NCBI GenBank assembly: GCA_902592445.1
Contig: CACJEN010000002.1
Location: 62,001 to 126,000 of the forward strand
DNA from: an uncultured Pelagibacteraceae bacterium
GTDB taxonomy: Bacteria; Pseudomonadota; Alphaproteobacteria; Pelagibacterales; Pelagibacteraceae
DNA length: 64,000 nt
Reading direction: 5' to 3'
Below the pieces are notes generated by a model that did no database searches, was not told the DNA's origin, and saw nothing but the letters and a program-made list of their open reading frames with translations. The position numbers and the translations under genes were made by a program. Positions 11,105 through 25,443 of this stretch are shown one piece after another (position 1 is the stretch's first letter; every line of letters starts with the position of its first letter).

Positions 11105-12118
11105 CTATTTTGGCAACCAACTTTTCCATTTATCAGGATTGTTGTCTAACCACTCGTTAACAACTTCTTTAACATCTCTTTTTTTGATATCAACTTCAAC
11201 TAACATTTTAGCTTGGTCAATATTTTCTAATCTCATTCTTTCAAAAAAAGCTTTTGCATCAGCATGTTCTGCTTTAGCAAAAGTAGCAGGATTTCCATAG
11301 TTCATGGTATAGTCTTTATCCCATCCAGTTGCAGGCCATCCTTTTGTACCACAAGTCTTCCAGTTGTTTGCTTCGGTAAATGTATCACCTTCACAAGTTG
11401 CGTACTCAGGAAGTTGAACACCTACCATGTCAAACTCTCCAAAAAACCAATGTGGTGACCAAAGGTATAATAAGAAAGGTTCTTTTCTCATGTAAGCAGC
11501 TTTTGCCTCCGCAATTGCAGCAGCCTCTGTACCTAGCTCATCTGCTTGGAAATCAATTCCTAAAAGATCTAGTCTTTTTTGATCATGACAGTTCCAACCA
11601 GCTACTGGACAACCAATTAGTCTTCCTTTACCACCTGTCTCAATAGTTGCAAATTTAGCTTTATGTTTGTTTAGGTCTCTCCAAGTTTTGATACCTAATT
11701 CATCCGCAGCATATTTTGGTATCCAGTAATCTGACATACCTATAATTCCAGTAGTTCCTAAAAGGTCAACTGTTCCATCGCCTTTGTAAGATTTTACTAC
11801 TTTGCCATCATAAATTAAATCTTCATTAAACATTACATCATCTGCTTCAGCATAACTTGGCCAGCTCTCACAAGCAAAATCTAGCTCACCAGCTGCAATA
11901 GCTTCCCATAGACCAGTTCCTGAAGGAAATACTGTTTGTTTAATTTTATAACCCATTTCTCTTTCGAGAATTGCTACAGCCACTTCACAAGTAATTATTC
12001 CACCTGTCCAGTCAGCAATAGCAGCATGTAGTCTTTTAGCAGCATTTGCTGTTCCAAAACTACCTACCATAAGCACTAAAGATAAAAATAGTGCTGATAT
12101 TGTTTTTGATAACTTCAT
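11105..12118 (-). CDS. Glycine betaine/TMAO-type ABC transporter, periplasmic substrate-binding protein (OpuAC/ProX/TmoX family)
   Basis: A 337-residue type II binding protein of the OpuAC family. The signal peptide is residues 1-26 (cleavage at ANA-AK). Tryptophan-containing segments likely to build the aromatic cation box include 'IADWTGGIITCEVA', 'ACESWPSYAE', 'SDYWIPKY' and 'YLWSPHWFFGEFD'. The family binds quaternary amines (glycine betaine, choline, proline betaine) or TMAO; I cannot decide which. It is last on a strand whose upstream genes encode its permease, a molybdoenzyme and a GcvT-like protein. It has its own good ribosome site (AGAGGA) and candidate promoter, so it is probably expressed above the rest. 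Confidence 0.9.
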   Translation of the reverse strand: MKLSKTISALFLSLVLMVGSFGTANAAKRLHAAIADWTGGIITCEVAVAILEREMGYKIKQTVFPSGTGLWEAIAAGELDFACESWPSYAEADDVMFNEDLIYDGKVVKSYKGDGTVDLLGTTGIIGMSDYWIPKYAADELGIKTWRDLNKHKAKFATIETGGKGRLIGCPVAGWNCHDQKRLDLLGIDFQADELGTEAAAIAEAKAAYMRKEPFLLYLWSPHWFFGEFDMVGVQLPEYATCEGDTFTEANNWKTCGTKGWPATGWDKDYTMNYGNPATFAKAEHADAKAFFERMRLENIDQAKMLVEVDIKKRDVKEVVNEWLDNNPDKWKSWLPK

Positions 12119-12151
12119 ATGTTTTATCCTCTTTTTTAAATTTAAAAGTTT

Positions 12152-12181
12152 ATTCTAGCTCAAAATTTAAGTGAATGTAAA
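12152..12181 (-). promoter_or_regulatory. Candidate sigma-70 promoter for the binding-protein gene
   Basis: Read on the minus strand: TTTACA (12181-12176), an 18-base spacer, TAGAAT (12157-12152). The predicted start near 12145 gives a leader of about 27 bases containing AGAGGA ahead of the ATG at 12118. It lies within the 123-base gap after the GcvT-like gene. Confidence 0.5.
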
Positions 12182-12226
12182 CTGTATATAAATTCAATAC
12201 CCAATACATTTATAGATTAAAAATGC

Positions 12227-12272
12227 GGTCTATTGACCATTTTATGGTCTATTTGGGATTGTACGGTCTATT
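12227..12272. repeat. Three GGTCTATT repeats spaced exactly 19 bases apart
   Basis: GGTCTATT occurs at 12227-12234, 12246-12253 and 12265-12272, a period of 19 bases. The array covers the end of the GcvT-like gene and the start of the intergenic region. The period is not a multiple of three, so the repetition is not driven by protein sequence. The first copy can also fold with GACC (GGTCTATTGACC), and GACCAT-TTT-ATGGTC forms a small palindrome at 12235-12249. It lies about 46-91 bases upstream of the predicted -35 of the binding-protein promoter. Confidence 0.7.
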
Positions 12273-13417
12273 CCTTTAACAATTTTTTTTTCATGATCAA
12301 AAAATGGTAATTTAACAATATTACATTCATGGATTGTGCCATTAGGTAATTCTAACTTTAACTTTTTTCCAGGCCATTCTTTCGGTTCATAAAATCTCAC
12401 ATATCCGATTCCAAGTTTTAATGTAGGTGAGGGTACACCCGCAGTTATATGTCCAACAATATTATCACCTTCTATAACTTTACTTCCAGAAGTTGGTGTA
12501 TCAGTTTCACAAGTAACACCAAACAAACATGTTCCTTTATTTTTTTTTGATAACGCTTCCCTTCCAATAAAATCACCTTTATCCATATTTACAAAAAATT
12601 CTAAACCAGCCTCAAAGGGTGTCATAGTTGTATCAATATCAGTTAAATTCCCAAATATTCCTCCTTCAATTCTTCTTATAGTCATTGCACGAGAGGATGA
12701 TAATTCCATCCCAAAAGGCTTTCCACATTCCATAAGGTGATCCCAAAGAGCTAAGTGGTCTGTCTTATACCCATCAGAATAAATTTCAAAACCAAGCTCG
12801 TTTGTGAAACCAGTTCTTGAAACATATAAATCTTGTCCACCAAGTTTAAAAAAACCTGATCTAAAATATGGCATGCTTTCATCTATATTTCCTTTTGATG
12901 CAGCTTTCATAATATCAATTGAAGCAGGACCTTGTATTTGTAGAACCCTTGACTTCGGATCTGATATTTTTACATCAAAATTTTCACTATGGGCTAATAA
13001 CCAATCTTCAAACGGACCGTCAGCTTGTACATACCAAAATTTATTATCATTAAATTTAAAAATTACTCCATCCATAAAAATCCCACCTTGAGGAGTACAT
13101 GCTAACGAATAATAACCCCTACCTTCTTTTATTGATGAAATTTTTCTTGTTAATATTTTTTCTAAAAAGGGAATTGCATCCTTACCTGAAATTTCCACTG
13201 GCTTTTCTGGAACATCAAAAATTAATGCTTTCTGTCTTAGTAGCCAATATTTTTCGATTGGATCTTCACCTATTGATATTGGAAAATATCGACCAGCATA
13301 AACGCCACGGACCATTTTAGGACTATTGGTTCTTTCAATGTAAGGAGACTCTTCAAATCTTCTTGCACTAATTTTAATGGTTTTGTTAAGATCAGATTCT
13401 TCTTGTAGATTTCCCAA
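12242..13417 (-). CDS. GcvT-family (aminomethyltransferase-like) folate-dependent enzyme
   Basis: A 391-residue protein with the GcvT fold: an N-terminal domain beginning 'ARRFEESPYIERTN', the folate-binding domain containing 'EKYWLLRQKALIFDVPEKPV', 'QIQGPASIDIMKA' and 'RTGFTNELGFEIY', and the C-terminal barrel 'GITAGVPSPTLKLGIGYVRF'. GcvT relatives transfer C1 units from methylated N or S compounds to tetrahydrofolate (glycine cleavage T protein, dimethylglycine and sarcosine enzymes, DMSP demethylase DmdA). The substrate here is unknown; no other glycine cleavage gene is nearby. Its place between the molybdoenzyme and the betaine/TMAO-type binding protein suggests demethylation of an imported methylated compound. 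Confidence 0.78.
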   Translation of the reverse strand: MGNLQEESDLNKTIKISARRFEESPYIERTNSPKMVRGVYAGRYFPISIGEDPIEKYWLLRQKALIFDVPEKPVEISGKDAIPFLEKILTRKISSIKEGRGYYSLACTPQGGIFMDGVIFKFNDNKFWYVQADGPFEDWLLAHSENFDVKISDPKSRVLQIQGPASIDIMKAASKGNIDESMPYFRSGFFKLGGQDLYVSRTGFTNELGFEIYSDGYKTDHLALWDHLMECGKPFGMELSSSRAMTIRRIEGGIFGNLTDIDTTMTPFEAGLEFFVNMDKGDFIGREALSKKNKGTCLFGVTCETDTPTSGSKVIEGDNIVGHITAGVPSPTLKLGIGYVRFYEPKEWPGKKLKLELPNGTIHECNIVKLPFFDHEKKIVKGIDRTIPNRP

Positions 13418-13427
13418 TTTAATCTCT

Positions 13428-15758
13428 CTAATTTGTTTTTGCGTTAGATCTTAAAATTGTTGGTGGATCAAATGCAGTTAATTCTGGAAGCGTATCATTA
13501 TATTTTTCGATCTCAATAAGACAAGAATGTGCAATTGGACCTTGTCCAAGTTTAGATGTACCTTTGTCGGGTGTTAATACATTTGGATTACCATGTTTAC
13601 ACATACTTCCATCTTGAGTAGGATTTTCTGGATCATACCAAGCACCAGTACTCATTTGTACTACTCCCTGCATTACATCATCTGTGATTTTTATACCAGC
13701 CAAACAAGATCCTCTATCATTAAACATTTTAACTACATCTCCATTTTTTAAATTACGTTTTTTTGCATCTATAGGATTAATTTCAAGCGGCTCTCTCTCA
13801 TTTATTTTAAATGACTTACTATACTTTCCATGATCCATTTGGCTGTGTAGTTTATTTTTCGGTTGATTTGATATTAAGTGAAGCGGATATTTTTTATTTA
13901 CTTTGCCCAACCATTCACAAGGTTCGAACCATACTGGGTGTCCTGGACAATCATCATAATTAAAGTCAGCCACTGTTTTCGAGAAAATTTCTATTTTACC
14001 ACTTGGTGTATTAAGTGGATTTTTTTTAGGATCTTCTCTAAAATCTTTCAACATTATTGTTGGTTCTGTTGGATCGCTAATTTTAAACCATTTTTGCTCT
14101 CTGAACTTTTCATATTTAGGTATCTCAATATTTGCAGCCGCTGCTCTATCAAATGTTTGTTTATAAATCCATTCTTGCCACTCATCTTGACTTTTTCCCT
14201 CAGTAAATTTTTCCTCAATACCTATTTTTTTTGCAATATTTGCAAAAATTTCAAAATCATTTTTAGATTGTCCATAAGGTTCTATTATTTTATCCATAGA
14301 TACTACAAATGGATCCCTGGGCGTCATCATTATGTCTGTTCTCTCAAGAGGAGTAGTGCAAGGCAAAACGATATCAGATCTTTTTGCAAGCGTATTCCAG
14401 CACCATTCATTTGAAATTATTGTATCTGGTTTTTCCCAAGCTTTTATTAGTCTATTCAAGTCCTGGTGATGATGAAAAGGATTTCCACCAGCCCAATAAA
14501 CTATTTTAGTATCTGGATAGACATATGAATTTCCATTAAAGTCAAATTTTTTTCCTGGGTTCAGTAAAAGATCACTAATTCGTGCAACAGGTATAAAATT
14601 CTCTATTTTATTTTCAGTTTGTGGAAATGCTGCTCCAGGTAAAACTTTAAATTGACCACCTATAAAATTAGTAGCACTATAACCAAAACCAAACCCACCT
14701 CCTGGTAATCCAATTTGACCAATCATAGAAGCAAGCATAATTGCCATCCAAAACGGTTGTTCACCATGATCTTGTCTTGTTAAGGACCAACTAATAGATA
14801 TCATGCTTCTTTTTTTTACAATTTTTATAGCTAGTTCTTTAATTTTAGATGCTGAAATTTCACAAATATTTGAAGCCCATTCAGCATTCTTTACTACGCC
14901 ATCATTTTTTCCCAAAAGGTAAGGTAAAAATTTATCAAAGCCCTCTGTATATTTATTTAAGAAATTAGTATCACTATGTCCTTCAGAATAAATTGTATGA
15001 GCCATCCCTAACATTAAGGCAGTGTCTGTGTTAGGTCTTGCTGCAATCCATTCACCACTAACCTCATTAATTAAATCAGATTTAAGTGGACTAACATTTA
15101 TAAACTCTATTCCTGAATTTGCAGATTCAATTAAATTTTCCTTTTGATAATGATGACCCGTCCCACCTTGAGAAATTTGACCATTTTTAATTGGAATTCC
15201 ACCAAAACAGAGAAAAACTTCAGTATTTTTTTTTATAGACTCCCAACTAGTGCATGTATCAAGATAAGCACGATAACTCCCAAGAATATGAGGGACCATA
15301 GCCTCTGCAGCAGCAAAACTGTATGTAAATTTTGATCTAGTATATCCACCAACACAATTTAAAAATCTGTGTAATTGGCTTTGGGCATGATGAAATCTTC
15401 CTGCACTGGCCCATCCATACGAACCGCCAAATATAGAGGAGTTCCCATGTTTCTCTTTTACTCTATTAATTTCGTTTGCGACAAGTTCCTCTGCTTTATC
15501 CCAACTAACTGCAATAAATGGTTCAACGCCTCTTAAATTATTGTTTGCCCCTGGACCTTTTTCTAGCCAACTTTTTCTAACCATTGGCTTATCGATACGT
15601 GTTGGTCCGTCTAGAACATCAACAATTCCTTGTGCAATAGGTGATGGGTCTTTATCATGTTCCCATCCAACAAGTTCCTCAACCTTACCATTTTTAACTT
15701 TAGCTCTATAAGTACCCCAATGGTTACTTGTTAAAGGCAGACCTTTATTTTTGGTCAT
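13428..15758 (-). CDS. Molybdopterin-dependent oxidoreductase of the DMSO/TMAO/biotin sulfoxide reductase family (BisC/TorA/DorA-like)
   Basis: A 776-residue single-subunit Mo-bisPGD enzyme. It opens 'LTSNHWGTYRAKVKNGKVEE' as in BisC/TorA. 'IFGGSYGWASAGRFHHAQ' contains the serine that ligates Mo in DorA/TorA (GGSYGW). There is no N-terminal CxxCxxxC iron-sulfur motif and no twin-arginine signal, so it should be cytoplasmic like BisC, receiving electrons from a soluble donor. Family enzymes reduce S- or N-oxides. It abuts the permease upstream (TAAATG) and precedes the GcvT-like gene by 10 bases, so all belong to one transcript. The substrate is not determinable. Confidence 0.88.
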   Translation of the reverse strand: MTKNKGLPLTSNHWGTYRAKVKNGKVEELVGWEHDKDPSPIAQGIVDVLDGPTRIDKPMVRKSWLEKGPGANNNLRGVEPFIAVSWDKAEELVANEINRVKEKHGNSSIFGGSYGWASAGRFHHAQSQLHRFLNCVGGYTRSKFTYSFAAAEAMVPHILGSYRAYLDTCTSWESIKKNTEVFLCFGGIPIKNGQISQGGTGHHYQKENLIESANSGIEFINVSPLKSDLINEVSGEWIAARPNTDTALMLGMAHTIYSEGHSDTNFLNKYTEGFDKFLPYLLGKNDGVVKNAEWASNICEISASKIKELAIKIVKKRSMISISWSLTRQDHGEQPFWMAIMLASMIGQIGLPGGGFGFGYSATNFIGGQFKVLPGAAFPQTENKIENFIPVARISDLLLNPGKKFDFNGNSYVYPDTKIVYWAGGNPFHHHQDLNRLIKAWEKPDTIISNEWCWNTLAKRSDIVLPCTTPLERTDIMMTPRDPFVVSMDKIIEPYGQSKNDFEIFANIAKKIGIEEKFTEGKSQDEWQEWIYKQTFDRAAAANIEIPKYEKFREQKWFKISDPTEPTIMLKDFREDPKKNPLNTPSGKIEIFSKTVADFNYDDCPGHPVWFEPCEWLGKVNKKYPLHLISNQPKNKLHSQMDHGKYSKSFKINEREPLEINPIDAKKRNLKNGDVVKMFNDRGSCLAGIKITDDVMQGVVQMSTGAWYDPENPTQDGSMCKHGNPNVLTPDKGTSKLGQGPIAHSCLIEIEKYNDTLPELTAFDPPTILRSNAKTN

Positions 15759-17882
15759 TTATTTTTTGGCTAAACCTAATGCTATTCTTTGTTTCTTTGT
15801 CCAAGCAAGGCTTATTCTATCGATTATAATTGCTAGAAGGACTATCCCAACACCTGCTGCCAATCCTCTTCCAGTATCAGATCTAGCTAATCCATTAAAA
15901 ACCTCTAGACCTAGTCCTTTTCCACCTATAAGTGGAGTAACAATTTGCATTGCAAACGCCATAATTACAGTTTGATTAAAACCTATTACTAAACTTGGTA
16001 TAGCTAAAGGAAATTTTACCTTATTAAGAGTTTGCAATAGGGATCCACCAAAAGATCTAGAAACTTCTGAATAGGTACCAGATACTTGAGTTAATCCTAG
16101 CGCGGTTAATCTTATTATTGGAGGTATAGAATATATTACTGTAGCCAGAACTGCAGAAACTATTCCACCTCCAAAAAACATTAAAACTGGAATTAAATAA
16201 CAAAAATATGGAAGAGTTTGCATAGCATCTAGTACAACATCTTGAATATTTTTAAATCTTTCGCTGTAAGAGGCTATTATACCAAGAGGTACTCCTATTA
16301 TAAAACATAACAATACTGAGACTAAAACCGAGGATAACGTAATCATTGATTGGGGCCATATTCCACAAGCTCCAATAAACAATAAAAGTATTATTGTAAT
16401 AATTGCAAATCTTAATCCAACTGTAAAATATCCGATACTTGCAAAAACTGCTAATGTATACCACCAAGGCGTATGAGTTAAAAAAATATCTAAAGGCCTT
16501 AACAAATTTAGATAAACAAATCCTCTTAATCCTTTAGAAAATGCAATAAAGCCTGGATCAACTGTCAAAGACTCTACAGCATTAGAAATCGGTTGTCTTA
16601 TTGATAACTTCCACTCTTTAGGAAAAGTTCCTATTTCATATAAATTCGAGTCTATGAATGAAATAATAAATAAAGCTATCAATGATGGAATCAAATAAAA
16701 TCTTCCACTTATAAATTCGCCGATATCATTTGCAGTATTTTTATTGAAAATAGAAATTAAAATACTTGTGAAAGATGCAATAAAATTTGTAATTTTAATA
16801 CATATAAAGTCTAAAATTTTGCTCGTAATATCTAAAGGCATTTCCAAAATTCTTGCAATTTTATATTTTTCTAAATTTTGAGGAAGTAAATGAAATTTTT
16901 TTACATTTGATGGAAGTTTATCTTCTTTATTACTGCAAGCTTTACTAAATCTATCAAACATTATTGCCATGAATAAAATACAAAGACCACCTTCCATTGC
17001 CCATCCGACATCAAGTCTTCTTATTGCTTGCCATACTTGTCCACCAATCCCTTCTGCACCAATAAAACATGCTAATACAACAAGAGCTAACGCCATCATA
17101 ATAACTTGATTGATGCCCATCATAATACTTGGCAGTGACATAGGAATTTTAATTTTTAATAATAATTGCAATTTACTTGAACCAAACGAAGTTGCAGACT
17201 CTACGGTTTCTTTTGAAACTTGTCTAATACCAGTGTTGGTTAATCGAATTATTGGTGGCATTGAATAAATCATTGTAGCCAATATTGCAGGTGCCCCCCC
17301 AATACCGAAAAAAAATAATGCAGGAAATAAATAAACAAAGGCGGGCATAACCTGCATTGTGTCCAAAACAGGTTTCATAAAATTTTCAAATCTATCACTC
17401 TGAGAGCACGCTATTCCAAGTAATACTCCAAAAAATACACATAAGAAAACTGATAATCCCATCAAAGCAAGTGTTTGTAGAGATGCTTCCCACATTCCAA
17501 CAGCTCCCCAAAAATAAATTACAAAGCATGAAAACAAGCCTAATCTTAGCCCACCAGCTATAAAACAAGGAAGAGTTAAAATTGCGGCGACTAAAACCCA
17601 AGGTGACTCAAGCAAAAAATCTTCTAAAAAATAATAACCAGCTTTAATGTAATTTGCTAAAATTTTTGTAATCCATCTGTAATTTTTCTTTAGATAATCT
17701 TCTCCTTCATTTACCCATGCTGTAAAAGTAAATTCATCAGTTACAACTTTAGGAAATTTTGATGGTCCGTCATTTTGACTTGAAAGAAATAAGGCTCCAA
17801 TAAAAACTAATAAAACCAATGAATATTTTATAATACTTTTTGTATTATTTTTATTTTCTATTGTTTTTTGGACTACATCCAT
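15759..17882 (-). CDS. Fused double ABC permease of the glycine betaine/TMAO type (ProW-ProW)
   Basis: A 707-residue protein containing two complete ProW-like permease domains. EAA-type loops are visible in each: 'ESATSFGSSKLQLLLKIKIP' (first half) and 'EVSRSFGGSLLQTLNKVKFP' (second half). Each is followed by a matching 'PSxxxGxNQxxxMA' segment. Normally two copies of a 300-350 residue ProW form the channel; here one chain supplies both, an arrangement known in alphaproteobacterial betaine/TMAO transporters. A 45-residue N-terminal leader with one helix precedes a large loop. The ATPase gene is divergent, 77 bases away. Confidence 0.88.
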   Translation of the reverse strand: MDVVQKTIENKNNTKSIIKYSLVLLVFIGALFLSSQNDGPSKFPKVVTDEFTFTAWVNEGEDYLKKNYRWITKILANYIKAGYYFLEDFLLESPWVLVAAILTLPCFIAGGLRLGLFSCFVIYFWGAVGMWEASLQTLALMGLSVFLCVFFGVLLGIACSQSDRFENFMKPVLDTMQVMPAFVYLFPALFFFGIGGAPAILATMIYSMPPIIRLTNTGIRQVSKETVESATSFGSSKLQLLLKIKIPMSLPSIMMGINQVIMMALALVVLACFIGAEGIGGQVWQAIRRLDVGWAMEGGLCILFMAIMFDRFSKACSNKEDKLPSNVKKFHLLPQNLEKYKIARILEMPLDITSKILDFICIKITNFIASFTSILISIFNKNTANDIGEFISGRFYLIPSLIALFIISFIDSNLYEIGTFPKEWKLSIRQPISNAVESLTVDPGFIAFSKGLRGFVYLNLLRPLDIFLTHTPWWYTLAVFASIGYFTVGLRFAIITIILLLFIGACGIWPQSMITLSSVLVSVLLCFIIGVPLGIIASYSERFKNIQDVVLDAMQTLPYFCYLIPVLMFFGGGIVSAVLATVIYSIPPIIRLTALGLTQVSGTYSEVSRSFGGSLLQTLNKVKFPLAIPSLVIGFNQTVIMAFAMQIVTPLIGGKGLGLEVFNGLARSDTGRGLAAGVGIVLLAIIIDRISLAWTKKQRIALGLAKK

Positions 17883-17959
17883 TGTATTTATAAGTTAAAA
17901 TATATTATTTTACATTTAAAGGAAAATATTGTCTATTTTGATCTTAATATAAAGAAATT
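17883..17959. promoter_or_regulatory. Divergent promoter region between permease and ATPase genes
   Basis: Seventy-seven AT-rich bases separate the two start codons, so both promoters of the transporter must lie here or just inside the genes. A TGTCTATT (17930-17937) differs by one base from the GGTCTATT repeat ahead of the binding-protein gene of the same system. That shared motif may be chance. No clear -35/-10 pair stands out. Confidence 0.35.
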
Positions 17960-19006
17960 ATGAGTGGTTCTTCAAAAATAACTTGTTCAAATATTTGGAA
18001 ACTTTTTGGGCCTGATGAAAAAAGAGTAATGAAGGAACTGGATCCGAAATTATCAATTAAAGAAGTACAAGAGAAAACTGGACATGTAGTTGCCGTTAAA
18101 GATGTAAGTTTTTCAATTCAAAAAGGTGAAACTTTTGTTGTAATGGGTTTGTCAGGAAGCGGAAAATCAACATTAGTAAGATGCATTTCAAGATTAATAG
18201 AGCCAACTTCAGGAACAGTCAAAATGGATGACATAGATGTTACGAAGATGAGTAATAGAGAGCTTCTAGATTTGAGAAGAAATAAAATGAGTATGGTTTT
18301 TCAACATTTTGGACTTTTTCCACATAGGACAGTTGTAGAAAATATTGGTTACGGCCTTGAAGTAAGGGGAAGCAAAAAAATTGAGAGAAACGAAAAATCA
18401 ATGGAAGTTTTAAAAATGGTGGGCTTAGATGGATGGCAAAACAATTATCCTCGAGAATTATCAGGCGGGATGCAACAACGGGTCGGTTTAGCAAGAGCAT
18501 TGGCTGTAGATCCTGAAATTTTAATATTTGACGAGCCTTTCTCTGCACTTGACCCACTCATAAGAAGAGAAATGCAAGACGAACTATTAAGTATTCAAGA
18601 AAAAGTAAAAAAAACTATGGTGTTTATTACTCACGACTTTTTAGAGGCAATCAAAATGGCAGATCATATTGCAATAATGAAAGATGGAGAAGTATCACAA
18701 ATAGGAACACCCGAGGAAATTGTTGCAAATCCTAAGGATCAATATGTAAAAGATTTTTGTGAGGATGTACCAAAGTATAAAGTTTTAAGTGCAGGAAAAG
18801 TAATGAGAAAAGATTGTTGTGATGATACTAAAAAACTTTATTCATCTAAATCAGATTGCATTCCTGACAATTCTAAAATTGAAACTTTAATAGAAAAACT
18901 TGTTGATACAGATAAAAAATTTCCCGTTATTTGTTCAGAAACTGGAGACTTGCTAGGTGAAATTGACCGTTCTATTGTGTTGAAATCAATGAGATCTGCT
19001 AGTTAA
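17960..19006 (+). CDS. Glycine betaine/TMAO-type ABC transporter ATPase (ProV-like)
   Basis: A 348-residue ABC ATPase. Walker A is 'GLSGSGKST' (near residue 68), the Q-loop is 'MVFQHFGLFPHRTV', the signature is 'LSGGMQQR', and Walker B is 'ILIFDEPFSAL', followed by switch His in 'FITHDFLEA'. The N-terminal 'LDPKLSIKEVQEKTGHVVAV' is typical of ProV/OpuAA. The C-terminal 70 residues form only a degenerate CBS-like segment with an unusual Cys pair (KDCCDDTKK). It should drive the fused permease encoded divergently. Its 3' end overlaps the convergent DMT gene by 8 bases. Confidence 0.9.
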   Translation: MSGSSKITCSNIWKLFGPDEKRVMKELDPKLSIKEVQEKTGHVVAVKDVSFSIQKGETFVVMGLSGSGKSTLVRCISRLIEPTSGTVKMDDIDVTKMSNRELLDLRRNKMSMVFQHFGLFPHRTVVENIGYGLEVRGSKKIERNEKSMEVLKMVGLDGWQNNYPRELSGGMQQRVGLARALAVDPEILIFDEPFSALDPLIRREMQDELLSIQEKVKKTMVFITHDFLEAIKMADHIAIMKDGEVSQIGTPEEIVANPKDQYVKDFCEDVPKYKVLSAGKVMRKDCCDDTKKLYSSKSDCIPDNSKIETLIEKLVDTDKKFPVICSETGDLLGEIDRSIVLKSMRSAS

Positions 19007-19931
19007 TTTGTTTATTACCTTTTATACTTTTCTCATTAACTTTATCTCTCCAAATAATTATCATACCAGCTAATATTATTAAAATAACGCCAGGAAAAAG
19101 TTGAGCCCAAGGTGCCTCATTAAAAAATATCCACCCCAATACAAATGATGATGGTATTCCTAAATATTCAAATGATGCCATTTTACTTGCGGAGATTAAT
19201 CTATAAGAATAAATAAATAAAATAGCAGCTGTACCACCAAGAATACCAGTTAGTGTCATTAAAAAAAAGTCTTGAACATTTTTGATTTCAACATGGCCGC
19301 TGGTTATAAAAAATAATACTATTCCACCCAGTACGTTAAAAATTAATGAGTATAATTGTATTTTTGCAGTTGAATGACCTTCGGGAATAAATTTAAGTAT
19401 TATAACACTGATCGCCCATGCAAATGCAGTCATAATTGGAAATATTGAATAAAAACTAAATATCTCACTGGTTGGTTTCATAATTAGAACAACACCAAAG
19501 AAACCTAAAAAAATTGCAGACCATCTATATTTACCAACTTTATCTTTCAAAAAAAATATAGATAAAATTACAATGAAAAATGGTGATGAAAATGTCAAAG
19601 TCATTGCCGTTGCAAACTCTAAATTTATTACAGAAATAAATACAAATATATTCATTGATAAAAATGCCAAACCTCTAAAAAAACTTAAAATTAAAAATTT
19701 TTTGTCAATTTTTCGAAAAATTGAAAAATATTCTTTCGTGAATATTATTAGAAGAATTAAAGGAATAATTCCCGCTGCATTTCTAAAAACAGCTAGTTGA
19801 ATAACAGAATATTCATCACCAAGAAATTTTATCACAACCATGTATAAATCTATACAAAGTATAGCCATAAGCATCGTAGTCACAGCAAGATAGGTTTTCT
19901 TCACATCTACTTTTTCAGATGATAATTTCAT
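18999..19931 (-). CDS. EamA/DMT superfamily transporter
   Basis: A 310-residue membrane protein with ten predicted helices in two EamA repeats. The first repeat ends 'MNIFVFISVINLEFATAMTL' and 'SSPFFIVILSIFFLKDKVGK'; the second contains 'SKMASFEYLGIPSSFVLGWI'. Family members export amino acids, metabolites or SAM-like compounds. The substrate is unknown. It is a monocistronic gene, convergent with the ATPase and divergent from the iron alcohol dehydrogenase by 42 bases. Confidence 0.82.
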   Translation of the reverse strand: MKLSSEKVDVKKTYLAVTTMLMAILCIDLYMVVIKFLGDEYSVIQLAVFRNAAGIIPLILLIIFTKEYFSIFRKIDKKFLILSFFRGLAFLSMNIFVFISVINLEFATAMTLTFSSPFFIVILSIFFLKDKVGKYRWSAIFLGFFGVVLIMKPTSEIFSFYSIFPIMTAFAWAISVIILKFIPEGHSTAKIQLYSLIFNVLGGIVLFFITSGHVEIKNVQDFFLMTLTGILGGTAAILFIYSYRLISASKMASFEYLGIPSSFVLGWIFFNEAPWAQLFPGVILIILAGMIIIWRDKVNEKSIKGNKQIN

Positions 19932-19973: not shown

Positions 19974-21164
19974 ATGAGTAACTTTAAACTAAATGAATCT
20001 GATATCTTATCAAATCAAGATTGGACTTTTCCAACCAATATTGCATACGGACCCGGACGTTTAAAAGAAATTGGAACAATTTGTAATAACTTAAATATAA
20101 AAAATCCCTTGATAGTAACTGACAAGGGAAGTCCAAAGTTGCCATTTATTTCGAATTTACAAAGTTATTTATCAAATTCTAATGTAAAATCAGATTTATT
20201 TTTCGATATATCCCCTAATCCAAGAGAGGATGAAATTTCAGTTGGTTGCAAAAAATTTAAAGATGGAAATCATGATGCAATTATAGCTATAGGTGGTGGA
20301 AGTGCTATGGATGGAGGTAAATTAATTTGTTTAACAGCAAATAATGATGTTCCACTCAGAGATTTTGAGTTTGAGTTAACTCCCCCAATAATAAGTAAAG
20401 ATAACCCATTTCCAAAAATTATAACTATTCCTACAACAGCAGGAACAGGAGCAGAAACAGAAATTACAGCTATGGTAACTTATTTAAAAGAGGGAATGAA
20501 ATTTTGCATGTGGCACCCAGATGTTAGACCTTCATTAGCATTAATTGATCCAGAATTAACAATAGGACTACCCGCTAATCTAACAGCATGGACAGGTGTA
20601 GATGCATTAATTCATGGAATTGAAGGATACTGCGTTCCAGGATTTAATCCTATGTGTGATGGAGCAGCATTAGAAGGTCTATCATTGATATCCAAATCAC
20701 TTGTAACTGCCGTAGAACAACCAGATAGTATTTTAGCAAGAGGTGGAATGCATGTTGGATCTTGTTTAGCAGGAATATCATTTCTAAAAGGATTAGGTAA
20801 TGTACATTCTATATCTCACGTGGTTGGTGCTGAGTACAATACGCATCATGGTTTAACTAATGCAATAGTTTTACCCGTAGTTTTACGTTTCAATTTACCT
20901 GGTATGGAGGAAAAAGTTCAAAGAATGTCTGAAGCAATGCAATATAAAGATCATTCAGTTGATGCATTCATTAAAAATATGGAAGATTTGTTAGATAGAG
21001 TAAAAATCCCTAAAAGCTTAAGTGAATTAAATGTTCCTGAGGACAGTGCAGCAAGAATTGCAGAGAAAGCAATGAAAGATCAAGCGTATGGCCAAAACCC
21101 AAAGAAAGTCTCTTTTGAAGAAATGAAAGAAATGGTTTTACAAAGTATAAAAAAAGCTCGTTAA
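19974..21164 (+). CDS. Iron-containing (group III) alcohol dehydrogenase
   Basis: A 396-residue Fe-ADH. The nucleotide-binding segment 'IIAIGGGSAMDGGKLI' and 'PTTAGTGAETEITAM' are family signatures. The metal ligands are all present: Asp and His in 'GVDALIHGIEGY', and two His in 'HSISHVVGAEYNTHHG' with the normal spacing of 14. The family interconverts alcohols and aldehydes with NAD(P)+, including lactaldehyde, 1,3-propanediol and 4-hydroxybutyrate enzymes; substrate cannot be assigned. It starts a tight operon with an amidase, a DMT exporter and a homocysteine methyltransferase. Confidence 0.88.
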   Translation: MSNFKLNESDILSNQDWTFPTNIAYGPGRLKEIGTICNNLNIKNPLIVTDKGSPKLPFISNLQSYLSNSNVKSDLFFDISPNPREDEISVGCKKFKDGNHDAIIAIGGGSAMDGGKLICLTANNDVPLRDFEFELTPPIISKDNPFPKIITIPTTAGTGAETEITAMVTYLKEGMKFCMWHPDVRPSLALIDPELTIGLPANLTAWTGVDALIHGIEGYCVPGFNPMCDGAALEGLSLISKSLVTAVEQPDSILARGGMHVGSCLAGISFLKGLGNVHSISHVVGAEYNTHHGLTNAIVLPVVLRFNLPGMEEKVQRMSEAMQYKDHSVDAFIKNMEDLLDRVKIPKSLSELNVPEDSAARIAEKAMKDQAYGQNPKKVSFEEMKEMVLQSIKKAR

Positions 21165-21170
21165 GCTTTA

Positions 21171-22586
21171 ATGCTTGATAATCTATCAGTTGAAGAAATT
21201 CAAAAAAATATAAATAACCGACAAATCTCAATTAAAGAAGTCTTAGTTTACTACTTAGAAAGAATAGAAAAATTTAATAAAGATATTAATGCTATAGTTT
21301 TACAAAAAGATAGAGAATTATTAATTAAGGAAGCAGAACAGAAAGATAATTTACAAAATAGCAAAAAAATTTTAAATGGTTTGCCTATAGCGATCAAAGA
21401 TCTTTCTGATGTTGTTGGTTTAAAAACTACATATGGTTATGCAGGATCAAAAAATAATAGCCCTAAGAAAAATTCACTATTTGTAGACAAACTAATAGAT
21501 AATGGAGCAATCATAATTGGTAAAACAAATACCGCAGAATTAGGTGTTGGCGGACATACTACTAACCGTCTTTTTGGACCTACATCTAATGTTTATAACT
21601 TTGAAAAGTCTGCAGCAGGATCGAGTGGTGGTGCAAGTTCAGCGGTTGCAGCTGGATTACTTCCATTTGCGGACGGTACTGATCAAATGGGATCTTGTAG
21701 AGGTCCAGCTGCATATGCAAATATTTATGGATATAGACCAACTCCTGGTTTGATTGCTGCTGATCGAACATATCAAAATTTTGATATACCTATTTTGACT
21801 ACTCCAGGATGTTTTGCAAAAACACCAAATGATATGACATTTTTAATTGATGCTATTACCGGAAGGCATCCATTAGATAAAATTTCGTTTGATTTAGATA
21901 GTTCATTTAGAAATGCAAAGTTTTCAGAGAAAGAATTTTCGAATTTAAAGATTGTTTGGCTATCTAATATGAATGGTAAATATAATATTGAAAAATCTAT
22001 TCTAGATATATGTGAAAAAAAATTAAAAGATTTAGAAAAAAATAATCTTGAAATTGAATATTTAAAGCCAAGCTTAGATACTGATGCTTTATGGAACAGC
22101 TGGACCACCTTTAGATCTAAAAGTATTTATCAAGATACATTAAGTATGGGTATTAAAGATATAAATTCCATGACATTTCAAGCAATTTGGGAATACAACA
22201 AAGGTAAAGATATTCAATCTGATAACTTAAAATTAGCTTTTGAACAAAAAAAAAGATGTAATGAGCAAGTTAATGAAATTTTCGATAAATTTGATTTTTT
22301 AGCTTTACCTTCTGCTCAATTGTTTCCCTTTGATAAAAGTATTCAATTTCCAAGTAAAATTAACGAGACCAGTCTCGATACATATCATAGATGGCTAGAA
22401 GTTTTTATTATATCAAGCCTATTGGAGTTACCAACTATAACTATTCCTGTTGGTTTTAATGAAAATGGTTTACCAATGGGAATGCAGATTATTGGTAAAA
22501 ATAAAGACGACTTAAAACTATTTGCTTTTGCAAAAATCTTTGAGGAAATTTATAATAATTCAAATTACAAACCAAAATTAAACTAA
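21171..22586 (+). CDS. Amidase signature family protein
   Basis: A 471-residue amidase. The Ser-cisSer-Lys triad is visible: Lys in 'GLPIAIKDLSDVVG', cis-Ser in 'AAGSSGGASSAV', and the nucleophile in 'DQMGSCRGPA'. The last motif is unusual, since the common form is D-x-G-G-S-x-R-x-P-A and here a Met replaces the first of the two Gly. It hydrolyses a carboxamide to ammonia and acid; the substrate is unknown. There is no signal peptide, so it is cytoplasmic. There are no gatB/gatC neighbours, so it is not likely to be the tRNA amidotransferase subunit. It begins 6 bases after the Fe-ADH stop and overlaps the next ATG by one base. Confidence 0.87.
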   Translation: MLDNLSVEEIQKNINNRQISIKEVLVYYLERIEKFNKDINAIVLQKDRELLIKEAEQKDNLQNSKKILNGLPIAIKDLSDVVGLKTTYGYAGSKNNSPKKNSLFVDKLIDNGAIIIGKTNTAELGVGGHTTNRLFGPTSNVYNFEKSAAGSSGGASSAVAAGLLPFADGTDQMGSCRGPAAYANIYGYRPTPGLIAADRTYQNFDIPILTTPGCFAKTPNDMTFLIDAITGRHPLDKISFDLDSSFRNAKFSEKEFSNLKIVWLSNMNGKYNIEKSILDICEKKLKDLEKNNLEIEYLKPSLDTDALWNSWTTFRSKSIYQDTLSMGIKDINSMTFQAIWEYNKGKDIQSDNLKLAFEQKKRCNEQVNEIFDKFDFLALPSAQLFPFDKSIQFPSKINETSLDTYHRWLEVFIISSLLELPTITIPVGFNENGLPMGMQIIGKNKDDLKLFAFAKIFEEIYNNSNYKPKLN

Positions 22587-23476
22587 TGGTAAGACATCGA
22601 CATCATTTTAAAATAGCTTTTATGTTAGCAATAGCAGCTGGATCATGGGGAGTTTATTGGCTTCCTCAAAGATATTTAGAAAATGGTGGCTTAACTGGGG
22701 GGTGGGGAACTATTTCTCAAATGATGATAGGTATATTATTACTAACTCCAATTTCTTTGTGGAGAAAATTTAAAGGTCGTTCATCAGGATTAGAAATACC
22801 ATTTGTTGGTCTTTTAACAGGAAGTGGTTTTATATGTTATGCCTTAAGTTTTTTATTAACAGATGTTGTGCGTGCATTAATTATGTTTTACATGATACCA
22901 GTTTGGACAACAATTTTTGAAATAATTTTTTTAAAGAAAAGACCTGGCTTAGAAAGAGTTTTAACATTGGGTCTTGCTCTTGGTGGTTTATGGATTGTTT
23001 TTAGTAAATCAAATATTGTACCACTACCCCAAAATGCTGGAGACTGGTTGGCCTTAGTAGGAGGTGTTCTTTTTGGTGGTGGGCTTATACGTTTGGAAAT
23101 TACTAAAACAGATGGAGTATTTCCTGTAATATTTTCTTTTTTCTTTTATGGAACAATATTTAATATTTTTGCTGGTTATATTTTAAAAGATTACTTAGGA
23201 CCTGTACCACCTGCAGAGGCTTTTCTCTCTATGTTTACTTTTTTGGTTCTTATTTCAGTATTTTATTTTATTCCTACAGGCGTAATAATAATGTGGTCAC
23301 CATCAGTTCTAGGTGCTGGACTTTGTGCAATACTATATTTGAGTGAAATTGTTGTTGGGGTTGTTTCTGCTGGTATTTTAACAGATGAACCGTTTGGATG
23401 GCGAGAAATTGTTGGTAGCTCCATGATTGTGTTGGGGGGTGTGCTTGCTGTAGTATTGGCCCCAAAAGAATCATAG
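22586..23476 (+). CDS. EamA/DMT superfamily transporter
   Basis: A 296-residue carrier with about ten helices. The first helix 'IAFMLAIAAGSWGVYWLPQRY' and the late 'GVIIMWSPSVLGAGLCAILYLSE' followed by 'TDEPFGWREIVGSSMIVLGG' are typical of EamA repeats. Its ATG overlaps the amidase stop (TAATG), and the homocysteine methyltransferase starts 3 bases after its end. Co-translation suggests it moves a substrate or product of these enzymes, but nothing in the sequence identifies the solute. Confidence 0.83.
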   Translation: MVRHRHHFKIAFMLAIAAGSWGVYWLPQRYLENGGLTGGWGTISQMMIGILLLTPISLWRKFKGRSSGLEIPFVGLLTGSGFICYALSFLLTDVVRALIMFYMIPVWTTIFEIIFLKKRPGLERVLTLGLALGGLWIVFSKSNIVPLPQNAGDWLALVGGVLFGGGLIRLEITKTDGVFPVIFSFFFYGTIFNIFAGYILKDYLGPVPPAEAFLSMFTFLVLISVFYFIPTGVIIMWSPSVLGAGLCAILYLSEIVVGVVSAGILTDEPFGWREIVGSSMIVLGGVLAVVLAPKES

Positions 23477-23479
23477 TAA

Positions 23480-24481
23480 ATGCTTTTCAAAGAAAAGCTA
23501 AAATCAAAAAATAAAATATTTTTAGATGGAGGGAACGGTTCTGAAATAGCAAAACTTGGCGGTGACATGAGTCCTGCATTTTCTGCATTAGCAACTTTAA
23601 CATCACCAGATATTGTAATTAAAGTTCATGAAAATTTTATTAATGCTGGTTGTGATATTATTACCGCAAATACATTTGCAACTAACAGACATAATTTGGA
23701 AAGTTTAAACAAAGGTGATCAAGTACATAAATTTATCGCAGACTCTGTAGAGCTTTCGAGAAAAGCGATATCAAACACTGGAAAAGAAAATATAATTGCA
23801 GTAGCGGGTAGCTTATCAAATTTTTTTCCCCTAAAGGAAAATGAGTTTGTTCCAAATCCAAAATTTGTACCAACCTTTAAAAAGGAGGAAGAAAATTACA
23901 AAGAAGCTGCAAAAATTCTGAAAGAATCTGGGGCAGATTTATTGGTCCTAGAAATGCTTTTGGATATAAATCACTCTAAAATTTTATTAAATGCAGCTTT
24001 AGAGACTGGTTTACCGGTATGGGTTGGATTGAGCTGTTGTGATAGTAAATTTGATAATTCTGTTATTGGAAGAAATTTTAGAGCAGAGAAAGAAAAATCA
24101 CTGATTTATGATGAGAATAAGTATAAAGACCAACCTAAATACTTACCTGAAGATAATATAATTTTACTGGAGGATATAATAAAATCACTTACGAGTTTAG
24201 GAGGTGATGTTTATGGAATAATGCATACTTGGTTTCAAGATAGCATTGGTGGTTTAAGAATATTGAAGAATAATTGGAAAGGACCAATCATGTTTTATCC
24301 AGAAATACATAAATTTGATACTAATACACATAAAGCAATAATAACTATGACAGAGGAAGAGTTTTCAAACTCAATTTTAGAATTAATAGATGATCAAATT
24401 CAAATTGTTGGAGGTTGTTGTGGAGTTAATGATAACCATTTAAAAAAACTTATACAAACATTATCTCAGCAGACAAATTAA
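23480..24481 (+). CDS. Homocysteine S-methyltransferase family protein (MmuM/BHMT-like)
   Basis: A 333-residue TIM-barrel methyltransferase. 'FLDGGNGSEIAKLGG' is the barrel start, 'NAGCDIITANTFATNRHNL' the second signature, and 'VGGCCGVND' (about residues 311-319) supplies the paired Cys zinc ligands. The third Cys, usually in G-x-N-C, is replaced: the equivalent segment reads 'VYGIMHTWF', with His249 in its place. The family makes methionine from homocysteine with S-methylmethionine, betaine or another methyl donor. The donor is unknown here. It is the last gene of the Fe-ADH operon. Confidence 0.83.
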   Translation: MLFKEKLKSKNKIFLDGGNGSEIAKLGGDMSPAFSALATLTSPDIVIKVHENFINAGCDIITANTFATNRHNLESLNKGDQVHKFIADSVELSRKAISNTGKENIIAVAGSLSNFFPLKENEFVPNPKFVPTFKKEEENYKEAAKILKESGADLLVLEMLLDINHSKILLNAALETGLPVWVGLSCCDSKFDNSVIGRNFRAEKEKSLIYDENKYKDQPKYLPEDNIILLEDIIKSLTSLGGDVYGIMHTWFQDSIGGLRILKNNWKGPIMFYPEIHKFDTNTHKAIITMTEEEFSNSILELIDDQIQIVGGCCGVNDNHLKKLIQTLSQQTN

Positions 24482-24582: not shown

Positions 24583-25443
24583 ATGAATTCAAACAAACTT
24601 AGAGTACGAAGAAGCTTTATATTTACACCAGGTTTGAACCCTGAGATGTTTCCAAAAGCGATAGATTCTGGCGCAGATATGGTTTGTATAGAATTAGAAG
24701 ATGGAATAGCACTTAAGGATAAGAATGATGCCAGAAAGAATACTCTTAATGCATTAAAAACTCTGAATGTAAAAGAAGATGTAGAATTAGTAATACGAGT
24801 CAATTGCCAGAGGACAAAACATGGCTTGTTGGACTTAGAAGCATTTGTTTCAAGTAAGCTTAAAATCGGTGCAATAATGCTTCCTAAAGTTAAAACACCT
24901 GATGAAATTAAGTTTATCGATGATTTGCTTACAGATTGTAATTTAGATACAGACCTACATGTAATAATGGAAACTAATGAGGCTTTAGAATGTATTTATG
25001 ACATTGCTCATGCTAGCAAAAGAACAGTTGCTTTATATTTTGGAGGTGTTGATATGGCTGCTGAACTTAGATGTGAACATAAATGGGAAAATTTAGTATA
25101 CGCAAGATCAAAACTGGTTCATGCAGGTGCAAGTATTGGAGTTGATGTCATAGATGTTCCATACTTAGATTTAGAAAATATGGATGGAATGAAAAAAGAA
25201 GCAGAACTTGCAAAAAATCTTGGTTTTACTGGCAAAGGCTCTATCCACCCAAAACAAATAGCTACTTTAAATGAGGTTTTTACACCCTCTAAAGAAGAAA
25301 TTAGTCATGCAAAAAGAGTTGTAGATCAATTTAATGAGTCAAACACAGGGCTAGTTGTAATTGATGGCAAACTTATAGAAAAACCTGTTTTAAGAGAAAT
25401 GCAACGAAAAATATTAATAGCAGAAAAAATAAACAAAAATTAA
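24583..25443 (+). CDS. HpcH/HpaI aldolase-family CoA ester lyase (CitE / malyl-CoA lyase-like)
   Basis: A 286-residue TIM-barrel lyase. 'RSFIFTPGLNPEMFPKAIDS' with 'DMVCIELEDGIALKDKNDAR' is the CitE/Mcl start with the metal-binding Glu-Asp region. 'IMLPKVKTPDEIKF' and the second metal-binding region 'LYFGGVDMAAELR' follow, and 'GFTGKGSIHPKQIATLNEVF' closes the barrel. Relatives cleave malyl-, methylmalyl- or citramalyl-CoA. No citrate lyase alpha or gamma genes are near, so it is a stand-alone CoA-ester lyase rather than citrate lyase. It overlaps enolase by one base (TAATG). Confidence 0.83.
   Translation: MNSNKLRVRRSFIFTPGLNPEMFPKAIDSGADMVCIELEDGIALKDKNDARKNTLNALKTLNVKEDVELVIRVNCQRTKHGLLDLEAFVSSKLKIGAIMLPKVKTPDEIKFIDDLLTDCNLDTDLHVIMETNEALECIYDIAHASKRTVALYFGGVDMAAELRCEHKWENLVYARSKLVHAGASIGVDVIDVPYLDLENMDGMKKEAELAKNLGFTGKGSIHPKQIATLNEVFTPSKEEISHAKRVVDQFNESNTGLVVIDGKLIEKPVLREMQRKILIAEKINKN

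Follow-up and report, generated by a model that had tools for sequence, protein, structure and literature searches.

A molybdoenzyme and a GcvT-like aminomethyltransferase form an optional two-gene module in a betaine-type import operon of SAR11 bacteria

SAR11 bacteria, which dominate the surface ocean, feed on methylated osmolytes. In the window, the 64,000-nucleotide stretch of DNA from an uncultured Pelagibacteraceae bacterium analysed here, genes for a molybdoenzyme and a GcvT-like protein lie between the permease and binding protein genes of an ABC importer. What would a putative oxide reductase and a putative folate-dependent enzyme do inside an import operon, and do they act on what the importer brings in?

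A preliminary description had reported five open reading frames, with gaps of 0–10 bases between the permease, molybdoenzyme and GcvT-like genes and a divergent ATPase gene, and the ORF coordinates agree. The minus strand carries a TmoX-like periplasmic binding protein of the OpuAC family (SBP; 11105–12118), a stand-alone GcvT-like aminomethyltransferase (12242–13417), a BisC/DorA-type molybdoenzyme (13428–15758) and a fused ProW-ProW permease of a betaine/choline-type ABC importer (15759–17882), while the ProV-type ATPase is encoded on the plus strand (17960–19006). The gaps measure 0 bp from permease to molybdoenzyme, 10 bp from molybdoenzyme to GcvT-like gene and 123 bp from there to the SBP. 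All five family assignments were confirmed with Pfam and NCBIfam: the SBP matches OpuAC with 147 bits, the permease contains two BPD_transp_1 stretches, the ATPase matches ABC_tran, and the molybdoenzyme combines Molybdopterin_N, Molybdopterin and Molydop_binding. In NCBIfam, the permease scores 430 bits against the ChoW model (cut-off 363) and the ATPase 360 bits against TIGR01186 (cut-off 327). The earlier reading as a betaine-type importer is supported. The preliminary description had the five genes right but missed the conserved surroundings. These comprise an EamA transporter recognised with Pfam and conserved at loci with and without the two enzymes (18999–19931, minus strand) and, all on the plus strand, an iron-containing alcohol dehydrogenase assigned with NCBIfam (Fe-ADH; 19974–21164), an amidase (21171–22586), a DMT/EamA transporter (22586–23476), a homocysteine S-methyltransferase-like protein that is a neighbour at some loci (HMT; 23480–24481) and an HpcH/HpaI (CitE/malyl-CoA-lyase-like) protein that is also conserved as a neighbour (24583–25443).

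The molybdoenzyme gene (first) and the GcvT-like gene (second) are an optional two-gene module of about 3.5 kb in this SAR11 import operon. The molybdoenzyme is present in 11 of 397 genomes of the order (77–100% identity), and in all 11, as in SAR11 single-cell genomes from a public scan, the two genes are adjacent between permease and SBP. The permease-SBP gap is 3642–3707 bp in SAR11 loci with the module and 92–171 bp in relatives without it (18 module-free loci fetched, gap measurable in 15). Nearly all 18 module-free loci retain the SBP, fused permease, ATPase, EamA, Fe-ADH, amidase and DMT transporter genes, and often HMT or HpcH as well. The pair sits in a pre-existing transporter operon that usually occurs without the two enzymes; the earlier view of a pair embedded in a transporter locus was right about position, but it did not foresee that the operon usually lacks both. 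The Fe-ADH of the operon was found in 123 of the 397 genomes, and the Fe-ADH operon in 10 of 11 module-bearing versus 113 of 386 module-free genomes (Fisher p = 5e-5, uncorrected for kinship). Module state changes 7–8 times on each of the SBP, permease and Fe-ADH trees; because the trees require this many changes, the module must have been gained, lost or exchanged repeatedly, and the ligand of the importer is not tied to it.

The order of the two genes is kept in 24 distinct loci (L067 and L090, being the same genome, were entered once) from SAR11, a second lineage of small-genome marine Alphaproteobacteria, and Roseovarius, an arrangement far beyond chance. Conservation of gene order, which the preliminary description had proposed as a check on all five genes, holds for the pair; the five are no fixed unit, and the pair itself is optional. 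In single-cell genomes of the second lineage (L090–L093, L097) the order is permease-molybdoenzyme-GcvT at 71–77% identity, and SDR, BKACE and, in one case, carnitine-dehydrogenase-like genes lie between GcvT and SBP. An uncultured Roseovarius carries two copies with the order permease-molybdoenzyme-GcvT-FeADH beside a different betaine-type transporter (permease 31–34%) and a different SBP without Tyr218; it also has a GST gene, and the HpcH protein of its first copy (L094) is 58% identical to that at 24583–25443 of the window. Fe-ADH is a neighbour in SAR11 and L067/L090-type genomes and stands directly downstream of the pair in Roseovarius. The first Roseovarius copy (L094:7894–13269) looks damaged, with a permease ORF short at its start and a GcvT-like ORF that ends early in a divergent tail; the second (L096) is intact, and SelA- and SelB-like selenocysteine machinery genes were seen by eye just downstream of it (L096:19937–22299).

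In a tree of 93 molybdoenzymes, the 25 encoded next to a GcvT-like gene cluster inside a 26-member clade (SH-aLRT 100). Its sole member without that gene, L095, has an Fe-ADH nearby, and none of the 67 sampled proteins outside the clade has a GcvT-like partner. Three candidates for further copies of the module were rejected: on Phaeobacter plasmid NZ_CP010709 a 58% molybdoenzyme match and a 34% aminomethyltransferase match lie 11 kb apart with genes between them, a Sulfitobacter plasmid copy has a dimethylformamidase neighbour and no GcvT, and the molybdoenzyme of G198 (51%) has no GcvT at its locus. The phage records searched yielded distant GcvT-family matches only.

The molybdoenzyme had been assigned to the DorA/TorA/BisC type, a placement supported by its BisC-family score, its active-site residues and its leaderless start. 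It reaches 978 bits against TIGR00509 (bisC_fam, NCBIfam), missing the cut-off of 1017 by about 40, and aligns over its full length with Rhodobacter DMSO reductase (DorA; 706 bits). As this alignment begins at about mature residue 6 of DorA, the enzyme has no Tat leader and is expected in the cytoplasm. DorA residues Tyr114, Trp116 and Ser147 are present at identical numbers and are invariant among its relatives. By homology and a predicted Ser-ligated Mo site, the enzyme belongs to the BisC/Dor/Tor family of S-/N-oxide reductases. It could conceivably work in the other direction, readying a substrate for demethylation by oxidation, hydroxylation or oxygen transfer, given that the DMSO reductase family includes DMS dehydrogenase and pyrogallol transhydroxylase, the latter a weak match to our protein. 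We regard this as very improbable: the enzyme falls within the BisC/Tor/Dor branch with Ser147, Tyr114 and Trp116 conserved, and the characterised members of that branch known to us are all reductases.

The GcvT-like protein (391 aa) contains GCV_T and GCV_T_C domains (Pfam), bearing out its placement in the folate family, and the folate-site Glu and Arg are conserved. GcvT chemistry to methylene-THF requires the Asp of the GGxxDD motif; in our alignment this catalytic Asp is replaced by Met in the GcvT-like protein and by Asn in DmdA. The active site of the GcvT-like protein resembles that of a demethylase. The protein scores below the cut-offs of the DmdA model NF009133 (166 bits; cut-off 410) and the GcvT model TIGR00528 (135 bits; cut-off 236). 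Against the Tdm model NF053776 it matches only positions 389–762, the C-terminal half, with 179 bits (cut-off 1100), which upholds the earlier distinction from the Tmm/Tdm route. Its best PDB sequence match is DmdA (3tfh, 139 bits). The linked GcvT-like proteins form their own clade (support 100/100), and together with other orphan aminomethyltransferases they are the sister group of the DmdA clade; GcvT and the FAD-fused enzymes branch elsewhere. A structure search with the model of the protein (pLDDT 70) matched the fold at a TM of about 0.7 and did not separate GcvT from DmdA, ranking B. subtilis GcvT first and DmdA seventh with similar TM. With both cut-offs missed, the Asp absent and a clade of its own, the protein is neither DmdA nor GcvT; domains, Glu/Arg and predicted fold make it a member of the broad group of GcvT-like folate-dependent enzymes.

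The SBP has five tryptophans, W37, W86, W175, W220 and W224, that are invariant in alignment A3. It scores 129 bits against the TmoX profile versus 47 bits against that of DmpX, and TmoX is its closest PDB relative. DmpX is a DMSP-specific binding protein in which Tyr200 is essential and for which eight pocket residues are given (PMC10030565). Tyr218 of the SBP aligns with this Tyr200, where TmoX has Phe and E. coli ProX also has Tyr; by eye, about six of the eight pocket residues match, Tyr200 included, although overall the SBP is nearer TmoX. This greater proximity to TmoX counts against the reading favoured below. It also favours a different route, in which TMAO or another tertiary-amine N-oxide would be imported and reduced by the molybdoenzyme and the GcvT-like protein would take C1 from the amine, as do the profile scores of that protein, slightly higher for Tdm (179 bits) than for DmdA (166 bits). 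We consider such a route unlikely, since the GcvT-like protein has neither a fused FAD domain nor the Tdm metal domain and the molybdoenzyme carries the DorA-type Tyr114. To our knowledge TorA lacks Tyr114, and a GcvT protein on its own does not take methyl groups from tertiary amines; the known cases need an FAD fusion (DMGDH, SardH) or the metal domain of Tdm. No tdm gene was found beside the SBP within the window, and the three long GCV_T proteins of the genome are all FAD-type.

The lack of Mo-cofactor genes had been named as a result that would count against the functional proposal. The host assembly (1.1 Mb, 84% complete) has moaA, moaC and moaE near fdhF, as well as fdhD and formate dehydrogenase. 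No mobA above cut-off was found in this 84% complete assembly, whose contig C1 stops just past fdhD; four module-bearing relatives have mobA at 127–143 bits, below a strict cut-off of 152 that just 1 of 14 control genomes exceeded. MsrP/MsrQ-like genes (Oxidored_molyb and Ferric_reduct; L077:4779–6734 on contig C1) adjoin moaE, a further host molybdoenzyme system, for periplasmic methionine sulfoxide repair, besides formate dehydrogenase. The real GcvT of the genome is L167; L173 is a true DmdA, and L172 is a further DmdA-like protein.

It is also conceivable that the two enzymes have separate substrates: the molybdoenzyme would repair or scavenge S-oxides (methionine sulfoxide, biotin sulfoxide or DMSO), while the GcvT-like protein would demethylate an osmolyte that needs no reduction, and the genes would have stayed together because a promiscuous importer supplies both. 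BisC/TorZ/MtsZ relatives do reduce methionine sulfoxide and biotin sulfoxide, and many relatives of the molybdoenzyme are solitary. The strict ordered pairing in three lineages with different importers, the separate clades that both proteins form and the MsrP/MsrQ-like genes that already serve periplasmic repair nevertheless make this arrangement doubtful.

We favour, at roughly even odds (a probability of about 0.5), a reading of the sequence data in which an imported methylated S-oxide, or N-oxide, would be reduced in the cytoplasm and then demethylated onto tetrahydrofolate by the module pair. The compound taken up by the ABC importer would be methylated, zwitterionic or cationic, and partly oxidised; the BisC-type enzyme, judging by family and active site, would deoxygenate an S-oxide/sulfoxonium or N-oxide in the cytoplasm; the GcvT-like enzyme would demethylate the reduced product, with tetrahydrofolate as methyl acceptor; and host operon enzymes, Fe-ADH among others, would process the demethylated remainder. 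The imported ligand would thus be processed first by one enzyme and then by the other. Because the GcvT-like protein stands alone, with no FAD or metal domain, and lacks the GcvT Asp, a DmdA-like direct methyl transfer is likeliest; sulfonium and quaternary ammonium groups would be suitable methyl donors for it. Placing an S-oxide reductase ahead of the demethylase makes sense if a sulfoxonium is imported, because the methyl donor would arise from it by reduction. Sulfoxonium compounds, of which DMSOP is an example, would be the candidate substrate class most consistent with the chemistry. Points against the proposal are the closer match of the SBP to TmoX than to DmpX, the 7–8 changes of module state on the transporter trees, the true DmdA already encoded in the genome and the Roseovarius SBP without Tyr218.

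DMSOP is a known marine sulfoxonium. A narrower and tentative version of the proposal, which is probably wrong in this specific form, would have the pair turn a DMSOP-like algal osmolyte into a sulfonium and then into a thioether and 5-methyl-THF; if true, the route would keep sulfur in some SAR11 cells instead of releasing it as DMSO. DMSOP reduction alone would need no second demethylase, since the genome already has its true DmdA. For DMSOP, PMC10686828 demonstrates lysis alone and names demethylation by DmdA as an open priority, and the literature searched yielded no reductive use.

Frequent neighbours of the operon, with and without the module, are gamma-butyrobetaine dioxygenase-like, carnitine-dehydrogenase-like, BKACE and SDR genes (L062, L200–L202, L207, L209, L212, L097), which suggests a carnitine/betaine catabolic neighbourhood. 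Choline-type oxidation by Fe-ADH and ALDH (L203, L096) was rejected as an explanation that leaves the pair unexplained. A few kilobases downstream of the module-free operon, a cupin or an MsrA-type methionine sulfoxide reductase occupies an equivalent place: the cupin in L196 (14842–15444; Pfam DMSP_lyase, 82 bits) and, by eye, in L200 (6031–6708), L201 (12442–13035), L209 and L210; MsrA by HMM match in L205 and, by eye, in L197, L202, L206, L208, L211 and L212. In a sister family (L199:1526–2683, L203:689–1885), a DmdA-clade aminomethyltransferase (346–355 bits; DmdA cut-off 410) accompanies the transporter operon instead of the pair. An SBP56 gene lies downstream of the Roseovarius copy in L094, but its reading as a methanethiol oxidase is not proven; at 159 bits against a cut-off of 650, it is weak evidence for sulfur.

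The module is real and conserved, and joins known families in a new, optional and apparently undescribed combination: the open-access literature searched contained no description of the pair in SAR11. Because it is compact and optional, it can readily be expressed and assayed, and followed through metagenomes. The proposed two-step pathway is open to test with two purified proteins, which makes a missing step in marine sulfur or methylamine cycling directly testable.

Among known systems, the TmoXWV and DmpXWV importers (PDB 4xz6, 7yle; PMC10030565) resemble ours in their OpuAC SBP, cage tryptophans and single permease protein, whereas the window SBP is a distinct lineage. SAR11_1300–1304 of HTCC1062 (PMC3160333; compared by description) likewise sets a betaine-type ABC importer beside an orphan aminomethyltransferase, but there a monomeric sarcosine oxidase stands in the place of the molybdoenzyme. 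DmdA (NF009133; PDB 3tfh) and the GcvT-like protein are both stand-alone GcvT folds without the GcvT Asp; they differ in having Asn and Met, respectively, at that position and in the separate 100/100 clade of the latter. With the TMAO demethylase Tdm (NF053776; PDB 9q59) the protein has the C-terminal GcvT-like domain in common, but not the N-terminal metal domain. The molybdoenzyme, finally, is like DorA/BisC/TorA enzymes (TIGR00509; PDB 1eu1, 1dmr, 7l5i) in full length and in Tyr114, Trp116 and Ser147, yet it lacks a Tat leader, stays below the family cut-off and is genetically linked not to respiratory partners but to an importer and a demethylase of the folate family.
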